This document shows, piece after piece, positions 22,807-62,536 of a DNA stretch of 64,000 nucleotides (positions are counted from its first letter, which is position 1; the number at the start of each line of letters is the position of its first letter). Under the pieces are notes generated by a model. The model did no database searches, was not told where the DNA came from, and was given only the letters and a program-made list of their open reading frames with translations. The stretch covers positions 1 to 64,000 of the forward strand of contig CAMHQP010000002.1 in NCBI GenBank assembly GCA_946187555.1, written 5' to 3'. The DNA is from an uncultured Bacteroidales bacterium (lineage in GTDB: Bacteria; Bacteroidota; Bacteroidia; Bacteroidales; Paludibacteraceae). Made by a program: the position numbers and the translations under genes.

Positions 22807-23196
22807 ATGGCGAAAGCAACCTATGCCCCGATGTTTGAGACCGTCTCTGGCGCTCTGAACAAGATCGACAAGAAGTCTCCGCACGCGGCAGACCAAAAGA
22901 TGGTGTTGGCTACCCACCGTAAAGCACCCACCACCTCGCCTGATTGCTCTCGTGTCTATCTCCGCGGACTTAGCTCCGTTACTCGCTCCACGCCCGTAAC
23001 GGCTAAGGAAACCGGAATCCGCACCAAGTTTGCAGCGGTCTCAACCGCAGTAAGCGCACGTCTGCAAGACCCGACCAAGCAAGCAGCCGACCTCGCAGCC
23101 TTCAAGGCGCAAAAGGATGCAGCGAACGGCAAAAAGACCATGCGCTCCTATATCTGGAGCCTCGAGTCCGCCGCTTATGACCAAGCCAACGGCTAA
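22807..23196 (+). CDS. hypothetical protein, paralogue of the 23368 gene
   Basis: 129 residues, basic and alanine-rich, no signal or membrane segment. It shares its layout with the protein at 23368: a start with YxPxxExVxGxLxK, then (L/I)(A/G)THRxAPTxxPxCxRxYxR near residues 37-53, AVSTAVxxRxxDxTKxAADxAAF near 79-100, and KTM(R/K)xY(I/L)W, ending AYDQ. Many Lys/Arg residues suggest DNA or RNA binding (inference). The two paralogues enclose the structured element at 23261-23360. Confidence 0.65.
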   Translation: MAKATYAPMFETVSGALNKIDKKSPHAADQKMVLATHRKAPTTSPDCSRVYLRGLSSVTRSTPVTAKETGIRTKFAAVSTAVSARLQDPTKQAADLAAFKAQKDAANGKKTMRSYIWSLESAAYDQANG

Positions 23197-23260
23197 CAAT
23201 CATCAACCAACTAACTAACCCTATTTACTCACTTATTAACACCTCTCAAGTGGCTTAGAG

Positions 23261-23360
23261 GGCATCCTCCTAGCGAGGACTTCGTGAGTCCGAGCTAAGA
23301 GCGGGTGCATCCGAGTAGTCCCTACTAAAACAAAGTTTTAGTACATCTACGAGGATAGCC
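23261..23360 (+). ncRNA. structured leader RNA, copy 1 of a repeated element
   Basis: The gap before the 23368 gene folds well. An outer helix pairs ATCCTC (23264-23269) with GAGGAT (23351-23356). Inside, TAGC/GCTA (23271-74 with 23294-97), a tandem GA/GA internal loop, and GGACT-TCGTG-AGTCC form a hairpin. Then AGAGCG leads into GGG/CCC (23303-05 with 23320-22), whose loop base run GTAG (23315-18) can pair with CTAC (23347-50), a pseudoknot. A hairpin ACTAAAAC-AAA-GTTTTAGT sits between. The same hairpin, with compensatory changes, occurs upstream of tRNA-Leu at 61873. It ends 7 bases before the start codon, so it is likely a cis element or a processed RNA. No known RNA family was recognised. 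Confidence 0.65.
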
Positions 23361-23367
23361 ACACGCG

Positions 23368-23754
23368 ATGGGAAAAGTATCTTATTCGCCGGGTATTGAG
23401 TACGTACAAGGCTCCCTGGCAAAACCGAAGAAACAGGACGGTCACAATCACGGTGATTACCTCATCGGTACGCACCGCACCGCGCCGACCGAGAACCCCA
23501 ACTGCACCCGCATCTACATCCGTAAGGGTAACACCTACGGTCAGAACGTCAGCAAGTCGCAGGAAAGCATCGCAGCCCGTCTGCGTTTCAGTGCCGTCTC
23601 GACTGCGGTTAACACCCGCTCCAAAGACCTCACGAAGATCGCAGCCGACCGCGCAGCGTTCCTCGAGCAGAAGGATCTGCCGGGTGGCCGCAAGACCATG
23701 AAAGGTTACCTCTGGAAAGTAGAGGGTCAAGCCTACGACCAGCAACACGGTTAA
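23368..23754 (+). CDS. hypothetical protein, paralogue of the 22807 gene
   Basis: 128 residues: GKVSYSPGIEYVQGSLAKP, then HNHGDYLIGTHRTAPTENPN with CTRIYIRKG, FSAVSTAVNTRSKDLTKIAA, and KTMKGYLWKVEGQAYDQQ. It is basic, soluble and similar over its whole length to the 22807 protein. The YLIGTHR...NPNC...YIR core is probably the conserved part of a Bacteroidales family of unknown function. Its start is 7 bases after the structured leader, so the leader could control its translation. A terminator follows at once. Confidence 0.68.
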   Translation: MGKVSYSPGIEYVQGSLAKPKKQDGHNHGDYLIGTHRTAPTENPNCTRIYIRKGNTYGQNVSKSQESIAARLRFSAVSTAVNTRSKDLTKIAADRAAFLEQKDLPGGRKTMKGYLWKVEGQAYDQQHG

Positions 23755-60570: not shown

Positions 60571-61833
60571 TCACTCGTATGTCAAAATGCAACAATTTTC
60601 GACATAAAACAAGTCATTTGCTACGTCTAAGAGCTCTTTTGACGACGTTTGTGCAATTTTGGCAAACGTTTCCTGCCATTCCGGGGCGTAACCGCGATAC
60701 AAAACCGACTTGGCCAAGGCCAATGCACTATTCTCCTGATTTTGGGCACTAATGGCCAACTGACCCCGTAATTGTGCCAATGCATTATGCAGCGCTGTGT
60801 CGCTCAATTGAACGTCCATTAACTTGTCCAATTCCTTACGCACCAGCCCGACGCTGCGGCTGTAGTCCTCCGGATCACATGCCCAGTAAACGCACCAATA
60901 CCCCGTGTCACTTAAGGGCGTATAGGTCGATTCGACTGTATAAACGAGTCCTTTCGATTCCCGCAAACTCAGATTCAAACGGCTGTTCAGACTGCCGCCG
61001 CCCAGGATGTTATTGAGCAGAAATAGCGCCAACTGCTTCTCATGTCCCAGCGGGTACGCTCTGCCGCCTAACATGGCATGCACCTGGTGCGTGTGTTTTT
61101 TATAGTGCGCTTCGTGCTCATTTGTGAATGTATGTGGAACGTATGTTTGTCCTATGTTTAACCTATGTTTGTCGTTATTAGAATTTCCAGTAAGTCCGCC
61201 GAATTCCTTCTCTGCAATCTTGAACATTTTCTCCGGTTTCACATTTCCTTGACAGAAAACCACCATCCGCTCCGGCGTATAATGTTCCGCCATCCAACGC
61301 TTGGCAAACTCCGGCTTCGAAGAGATATGCCGCAAAGTCTTCTTGGTGCCTAAGATAGGCTGCGCAAGGCTGCTGCCGGAAAAAACAAGACTCTCAAAAT
61401 CGTCGTAAATCAGTTCACTCGGCTGGTCGTTATAACTCTCTATCTCGTCCAAGATCACCATCCGTTCCTTGTCCGTCTCTTCTTTCTTGAACGCCGGCTC
61501 CAGAATCATCTCCGCAATCAGATGCAAGGTCAACTGCACATGTTCTGCCAAAGTGGCTGCATAGAACGTCGTCTCCTCCTTCGTTGTGTAGGCATTCACC
61601 TCACCGCCGATACCTTCTATCGACTGAATGATCTGCCGTCCCGTATGGTGCGCTGTCCCCTTGAAAACACAATGCTCGATATAGTGCGCCATGCCGTTCT
61701 CTTCCGGCTTCTCATCCCGTGTGCCGGCACCCACCATCACGCCTACGTATGCCACCGGACTCGGCGTCCAGCGGTGCACGATTTTTACACCATTCGGCAA
61801 ATTATGATAAAAAGTTTGACTATTTTCTTGCAT
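60571..61833 (-). CDS. M16-family zinc peptidase
   Basis: 420 residues, one M16 repeat unit pair (about half of pitrilysin length). The inverted zinc motif HYIEH is in GMAHYIEHCVFKGTAHH, and the downstream zinc-ligand Glu region is VNAYTTKEETTFYAATL. The C-terminal non-catalytic half has NILGGGSLNSRLNLSLRESK. No signal peptide; cytoplasmic or periplasmic. A TATGTTTGTCC-type repeat (61137-61165) codes NIGQTYVP in frame. The start overlaps the -33 region of the plus-strand promoter at 61827. Confidence 0.9.
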   Translation of the reverse strand: MQENSQTFYHNLPNGVKIVHRWTPSPVAYVGVMVGAGTRDEKPEENGMAHYIEHCVFKGTAHHTGRQIIQSIEGIGGEVNAYTTKEETTFYAATLAEHVQLTLHLIAEMILEPAFKKEETDKERMVILDEIESYNDQPSELIYDDFESLVFSGSSLAQPILGTKKTLRHISSKPEFAKRWMAEHYTPERMVVFCQGNVKPEKMFKIAEKEFGGLTGNSNNDKHRLNIGQTYVPHTFTNEHEAHYKKHTHQVHAMLGGRAYPLGHEKQLALFLLNNILGGGSLNSRLNLSLRESKGLVYTVESTYTPLSDTGYWCVYWACDPEDYSRSVGLVRKELDKLMDVQLSDTALHNALAQLRGQLAISAQNQENSALALAKSVLYRGYAPEWQETFAKIAQTSSKELLDVANDLFYVENCCILTYE

Positions 61834-61858
61834 AATTCAATTTTTTGTTGTACTTTTG
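61827..61858 (+). promoter_or_regulatory. Bacteroidetes promoter of the leader-tRNA-Leu-lipoprotein unit
   Basis: CTTG at 61827-61830, 20 bases, TACTTTTG at 61851-61858. Transcription would start near 61865, just ahead of the structured leader. No other promoter is seen before the lipoprotein gene. Confidence 0.72.
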
Positions 61859-61872
61859 CAAAAATTTTTAAC

Positions 61873-61942
61873 TCGGGAGGACTTCGTGAGTCCGACCGAA
61901 GAGCGTAGAACACGACGTAGCGCTATTACGAGGGCTGTGCCC
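61873..61942 (+). ncRNA. structured leader RNA, copy 2 of a repeated element, before tRNA-Leu
   Basis: The hairpin of the 23271 element recurs: TCGG/CCGA stem (61873-76 with 61896-99), tandem GA/GA loop, GGACT-TCGTG-AGTCC, then AGAGCG. Compared with copy 1 (TAGC/GCTA) two of four stem pairs have changed on both sides, which keeps the pairing. Next GCG pairs with CGC (61903-05 with 61921-23) and its loop run CGTAG (61916-20) can pair with TTACG (61926-30), again a pseudoknot. A GGGC-TGT-GCCC hairpin follows. An alternative pairing GACTTCG with CGAAGTC (61880-86 with 61942-48) would open the hairpin. It lies between the promoter and tRNA-Leu. Confidence 0.65.
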
Positions 61943-61970
61943 GAAGTCGCGCGAGTCGTAGTTTAAGCGA

Positions 61971-62052
61971 GCGGCATTGGCGGAATTGGTAGACGCGCCA
62001 GACTTAGGATCTGGTTCCTCACGGAGTGAAAGTTCGAGTCTTTTATGCCGCA
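61971..62052 (+). tRNA. tRNA-Leu (anticodon UAG)
   Basis: 82 bases. Acceptor GCGGCAT pairs with ATGCCGC, discriminator A, no encoded CCA. D-arm with AATTGGTAGACGC, anticodon stem CCAGA/TCTGG with loop CTTAGGA (anticodon TAG at 62005-62007), a long variable arm of the leucine type, and T-loop TTCGAGT. It reads CUN codons. The next gene starts 4 bases after the tRNA. Confidence 0.95.
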
Positions 62053-62056
62053 CATT

Positions 62057-62536
62057 ATGAAACGTATTCTCTTATATGCTGTCGTAGCGCTCGCCGCTAT
62101 ATCCCTCACTTCCTGTCTGGAGTCGAATAACCAAGCTACGCCTGTTATTCAGGCCGGCTATCTCACGCGTGTCAACGCCGCCGGCGTTTGCGATACCATC
62201 TCTTTCGCGGATACGCTTCAAGTGGCCGATACCCTGCGCGTACCTCTGGCGCTCTGGGGCGTGTATAATAATCTCACGACCTTCCAGGTCACGGCCGACA
62301 CTTCCGTCATCTCTTATCAACTGCTCAACGATTCCTCCTATCTGCATCTGCTCGATAAGAGTTCCGCTCCGGAGAAAGGCTATCTGCGTTTCCTCACCGG
62401 TTGTTTGCTCTTTGAGACGAACTTGCAGTATATACCCAAGAAAACAGGAGATTATGAGGTGCACTTGACGCTCGCTTCAGATGCCGGCGATAAATACTCA
62501 CCTCTCGAGGCCTATTTCGTGGTGCACATCCGCTAA
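62057..62536 (+). CDS. small lipoprotein of unknown function
   Basis: 159 residues from ATG 62057; a frame start at 62045 lies inside the tRNA and is rejected. Lipobox LTSC (Cys20). The rest looks like a single beta-sandwich: SFADTLQVADTLRVPLALWG, TFQVTADTSVISYQLLNDSS, and TGDYEVHLTLASDAGDKYSP. Not recognised. It follows tRNA-Leu by 4 bases with no room for a promoter, so it is probably on the same transcript as the tRNA, and processing at the tRNA 3' end would leave an almost leaderless message. Confidence 0.72.
   Translation: MKRILLYAVVALAAISLTSCLESNNQATPVIQAGYLTRVNAAGVCDTISFADTLQVADTLRVPLALWGVYNNLTTFQVTADTSVISYQLLNDSSYLHLLDKSSAPEKGYLRFLTGCLLFETNLQYIPKKTGDYEVHLTLASDAGDKYSPLEAYFVVHIR

Follow-up and report, generated by a model that had tools for sequence, protein, structure and literature searches.

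A structured leader of tRNA-Leu(UAG) as one copy of a family of small folded repeats in a rumen Paludibacteraceae genus

The window, a stretch of 64,000 nucleotides from an uncultured Bacteroidales bacterium of the Paludibacteraceae, contains close to its end a compact arrangement on the forward strand of a promoter-like sequence, a leader, a tRNA gene and a protein gene. The promoter-like sequence (61828-61858) is formed by TTG at 61828-61830, 20 nt and TACTTTTG at 61851-61858, and is of the -33/-7 type of Bacteroidota; TAnnTTTG boxes are located upstream of most of the tRNAs read in the rumen Paludibacteraceae genus analysed here. It is the one promoter visible upstream of the leader (61859-61970, about 110 nt), whose calculated fold has -41.5 kcal/mol and z = -3.4, with 1 of 200 shuffled sequences being equally stable, so that the structured element that a previous sequence-only reading had placed between promoter and tRNA is real. 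Its first part, predicted by folding, is helix P1 (61873-61899), in which TCGG-GA-GGACT faces AGTCC-GA-CCGA in a hairpin with a tandem G.A internal loop, and the outer stem of this helix varies on both sides among copies (TCGG/CCGA, TAGC/GCTA, TAAC/GTTA, CCCC/GGGG). The second part, derived from covariation among 29 sequences, is the core domain (model R1, 61900-61969), with the linker AGAGCG, the end AAGCG and the forward-strand helices P2a (61908-11/61961-64), P2b (61913-16/61955-58), P3 (61920-23/61949-52) and P4 (61932-35/61939-42). The element ends 1 nt upstream of tRNA-Leu(UAG) (61971-62052/53), whose CCA is not encoded. The gene that follows (62057-62536) encodes a lipoprotein of 159 amino acids with the lipobox LTSC, which had no match in Pfam and has homologues in 31 of the 61 sampled genomes of the genus.

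The ATG of the lipoprotein gene (62057) is located 4 nt past the tRNA discriminator base (62052), as the sequence-only reading had pointed out, and in 13 species (12 plus that of the window) the start codon lies 2-4 nt past the annotated tRNA end. The gap of 4 nt is too small for a second promoter. Since this spacing is found in 13 species, it is plausible that tRNA 3' processing would give an mRNA with almost no leader. From the promoter-leader-tRNA-lipoprotein order proposed by that reading, the tRNA-lipoprotein part is kept in relatives, at 19 of the 20 loci read, but the leader is not. The short spacing is found both with and without the repeat element as leader and, since relatives with other leaders have it too, the junction is by this comparison a separate feature, independent of the element.

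Places related to the leader were located by BLAST in the host genome and in 11 of the 61 genomes of the relatives sample. A covariance model detected the element in 31 of these 61 genomes, with 1-14 copies each, and gave nine matches in the host genome, where short forms are also present; the model misses variants, for instance those of G015, G017, G018 and G022, so that a genome without a model match may still carry members of the wider family. Of 247 genomes sampled at the level of the order and scanned with stricter filters that could miss distant weak forms, only two gave matches, both from the same rumen genus. The named hits of a pattern scan were all MAGs labelled Paludibacteraceae or Bacteroidales, many of them with rumen or ruminant-gut source names. 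All the genomes are draft MAGs, and the classes of copies were set by simple sequence rules. The element was not found in the plasmids and phages searched, and viral contigs yielded one copy, of the intergenic type (IMGVR_UViG_3300031998_000199). It was unmatched in Rfam 15 at the gathering threshold, where the only matches were to tRNA, tmRNA, SRP RNA and RNase P RNA, and the relaxed threshold gave tRNA and chance matches only. As judged from these comparisons, the leader of tRNA-Leu(UAG) belongs to a family of small folded DNA repeats that had not been described before.

The alignment of 29 core domains showed that 97.3% of the paired cells hold standard pairs and that 15 of the 18 pairs have double-sided changes. 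Cells with double changes numbered 101, versus 27.0 in shuffles, and because such changes far exceed the shuffled expectation the fold of the element is, on the evidence of covariation, real. The paired share fell to 13-52% in a slid-structure control, which is a lenient one as the structure was drawn from the same 29 sequences. A strand test comparing G-U with A-C mismatches gave 37 versus 2 in the intergenic class, 24 of these being located at one closing pair; without that pair, and with both classes pooled, the values were about 18 and 9.

The location of the copies follows gene boundaries. From 110 distinct copies, 46 adjoin the 5' end of a stable RNA gene (40 tRNA genes of about 17 kinds, four tmRNA and two SRP RNA), and one copy precedes a tRNA-Gly after which RNase P RNA comes next. 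All 46 have the same orientation, towards the RNA, with nearly fixed spacing, the spacer being 1 nt in 29 of 43. About 50 of the 110 are intergenic and not placed before stable RNAs; their first helix is of the type GGGGTCCCC...GGGG, and an antisense stop codon lies -12 to +4 nt from the element in 17 of the 31 assessable cases. In a few cases the element stops 0-1 nt short of a start codon; the genes concerned are greA, a gene for an RND pump, a HAD-like gene and those of a small family. The terminus ...AAGCG is thereby positioned at, or a few bases from, a stable RNA 5' end, a start codon or an antisense stop codon. Relative to neighbouring genes, copies occur in both orientations. Genome G027 carries five copies with identical model score, near-identical cores and different flanking genes, which suggests recent spread. 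The element seemed at first to truncate T9SS C-termini, a reading that was rejected because T9SS proteins normally end at that very point.

The claim that the same element recurs in the window was borne out by a second copy (23270-23367, forward strand; 30/34 identity over the first-hairpin stretch only, E = 1e-5). It is a short form with P1 and a different P2, and it ends directly at the ATG (23368) of an open reading frame; a dispersed repeat family explains why the element stands before a protein gene as well as before a tRNA. The 5' hairpin of this copy (23242-23261, forward strand) has the loop TGGCT, and the complement AGCCA lies close to where its gene starts. By eye, five of the six copies at start codons show such an extra 5' hairpin whose TGGCT loop is complementary to an AGCCA just upstream of the start codon, and the sixth has a matching change (TTGGGC with GCCCAA). 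Short related proteins (M-K-...-GIEYVQG...), with no match in Pfam, often adjoin copies of the element and occur in the window at 22807-23754.

Orthologous sites with and without the element were compared. At greA, the flanks of G000 and G003 are 91% and 94% identical while 159 nt and 13 nt, respectively, lie between them, and the element is absent in 13 of 13 readable relatives. Between typA and tig, the element form is present only in G027 out of 17 species, directly behind the stop codon; some of the others have unrelated inserts, and G017 contains a variant-like copy further downstream, as judged by eye. In this spacer a different repeat family (...GCTCATGCTTTTGCGGACCCCAACCGCAAAAG... or a variant of it) likewise begins directly behind the typA stop codon. 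At tRNA-Leu(UAG), flanks 89% identical in G000 and G003 enclose differing leaders of 130 and 52 nt. This slot is occupied by the element of the window in G000, G065 and G031, by a related element in G015, G022, G035 and G018, and by other hairpins in G003, G006, G068, G036 and G004, and there is only a short leader in G084, G071, G033 and G063. The tmRNA leaders, mostly short with sporadic inserts, follow a similar pattern, and the tRNAs of G014 and G027 that were read directly have mostly short leaders as well. At some tRNAs, for example tRNA-Leu(CAA), orthologous copies persist in several species. The sites without the element at greA, typA-tig, tRNA-Leu and tmRNA point to insertion or replacement, with loss instead of gain being possible at some loci. 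The idea of a leader dedicated to processing or elongation at this locus found no support in this comparison, as the orthologous tRNA-Leu leaders in other species are unrelated hairpins or nothing, including that of G003, and the 13 greA relatives do without it; a role of the element in processing or elongation is nevertheless possible.

Some related observations concern the same slot. Many tRNA transcripts of the genus start with ACCCGCTTTCG...AAAGAGCG, a short 5'-end hairpin seen in leaders of G000, G014 and G027, and several unrelated hairpin cassettes stand directly before tRNA or tmRNA genes (GGGCGCTCGCTACGCTCGCGCC, GAATTC hairpins and CTAGGCGGA...CGCTCCG). A supposed cassette swap between G018 and G083 was rejected: upstream of tRNA-Leu the two are about 75% identical, but from its 5' end on 99.9%, a pattern that marks a breakpoint at the tRNA caused by recombination or by assembly, and it was not used as evidence.

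The dispersed copies, the sites without the element, the occurrence in both orientations and the near-identical copies argue that the leader is quite probably a small (about 100 nt) non-coding mobile repeat, conserved in structure and specific to one rumen Paludibacteraceae genus. Such a repeat was probably tolerated or reused as a leader, instead of being a dedicated switch for the tRNA or the lipoprotein. Mobility itself we infer from this distribution; no target-site duplication is present, edge repeats in 52 copies being no longer than in shuffled pairs, and no partner transposase was found. The main rival is that the element is a functional module which tRNA, tmRNA and SRP RNA genes acquired as a leader on repeated occasions, and which acts in 5'-end protection, in processing by RNase P or RNase III, or in preventing early termination. 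It would account for the uniform orientation of the 46 copies and their usual distance of 1 nt from the RNA, for the short hairpin that leaders without the element often have at the same place, and for the first transcribed bases (CGCTTTTTCG) of many stable-RNA copies, which can pair with the linker CGAAAAGCG (mean run of 7.1 versus 3.9 in shuffles, 32 copies). However, the copy of the window lacks this pairing, the element is missing from many orthologous tRNA and tmRNA genes of the genus, and most of the roughly 50 copies away from stable RNAs have no visible forward promoter, which make this explanation rather unlikely. The conserved fold, the single orientation and the fixed spacing before stable RNAs imply some constraint beyond plain insertion, whose source would be either boundary recognition at insertion, survival of such insertions only, or usefulness as a leader. 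A mobile repeat with targeting or selection is favoured, and it does not exclude a functional leader.

A particular form of mobile repeat is a REP-type element whose single-stranded hairpins are moved by a Y1 (RAYT/IS200-like) transposase, and it would fit the GTAG-motif hairpins, the lack of target-site duplication and the intergenic spread. Y1_Tnp (PF01797) was nevertheless detected in only 22 of the 61 genomes and was missing from several copy-rich ones (G000, G004, G034, G070), an argument weakened by the low completeness of some MAGs, and this form seems improbable. More speculative in kind, and unlikely though slightly less so, is a mobile element that needs a folded RNA or single-stranded DNA form to propagate and inserts specifically at RNase P sites, start codons and stop codons, being in effect a portable leader with its own processing and translation-start signals. 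The refolding of GACTTCG with CGAAGTC, noted in the sequence-only reading, can occur in the copy of the window; as a switch it fares poorly, as the partner is present in only one of the three modelled copies with GACTTCG in P1, that of the window, P1 differs in sequence among species at the same locus, and no riboswitch of Rfam matched. A riboswitch-like regulator of the tRNA-lipoprotein unit is thus hardly credible.

With the mobile repeat as the preferred reading, the element of the window would have entered the space from the tRNA promoter to tRNA-Leu(UAG), either by insertion or by taking the place of a short leader that was there earlier. Transcription would make it the 5' leader of the tRNA, the RNA would fold as P1 plus P2-P4, and RNase P would remove the folded leader. 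In many of the stable-RNA copies, not in that of the window, pairing of CGCTTTTTCG with CGAAAAGCG would sequester the 5' end of the RNA. A tRNA leader that is structured, covaries strongly and resembles a regulatory RNA can hence be one copy of a dispersed repeat, a caution that covariation alone is insufficient for calling riboswitches. Repeats of this sort do not usually make near-exact contact with the 5' ends of many tRNA, tmRNA and SRP RNA genes and with start and stop codons, and what leads to insertion specifically at boundaries, or to its selection, is a testable question.

REP/REPIN sequences with RAYT transposases are intergenic hairpin repeats that produce no target-site duplication. 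The Paludibacteraceae element is similar in these respects, but it has a larger two-domain fold, exact contact with tRNA genes and a Y1 transposase that does not track it, the incompleteness of the MAGs being a caveat to this missing co-occurrence; REP/REPIN sequences and RAYT transposases are the subject of PMC3116915. MITEs and the small mobile sequences NEMIS (Correia), ERIC, CIR and RU are non-autonomous intergenic sequences of about 100-200 bp with long stem-loop transcripts (PMC2229807). The element differs from them in the absence of the target-site duplication that strictly defines a MITE, and in intergenic copies without clear terminal inverted repeats; the only short inverted ends are the 5-nt CGCTT...AAGCG of some stable-RNA copies. 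Its contact with stop codons is only suggestive of a likeness to integron attC sites, which are folded, lie behind cassette genes and are recognized by the integrase. Pneumococcal BOX elements are small, dispersed, composite repeats with exchangeable modules that fold as RNA, extend operons at their 5' or 3' ends and vary among strains (PMC3049150). Compared by description only, BOX and the element are alike as small, dispersed, exchangeable folded modules, whereas their hosts are unrelated, kinship in sequence is not to be expected and the element adjoins stable RNA 5' ends and start and stop codons. The features by which small mobile repeats are broadly recognized, dispersed copies with unrelated flanks and orthologous sites without the element, were both found. 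The element is best read as one of the general BOX, MITE and REP kind that is placed at gene boundaries with unusual exactness and whose helices are exchangeable.
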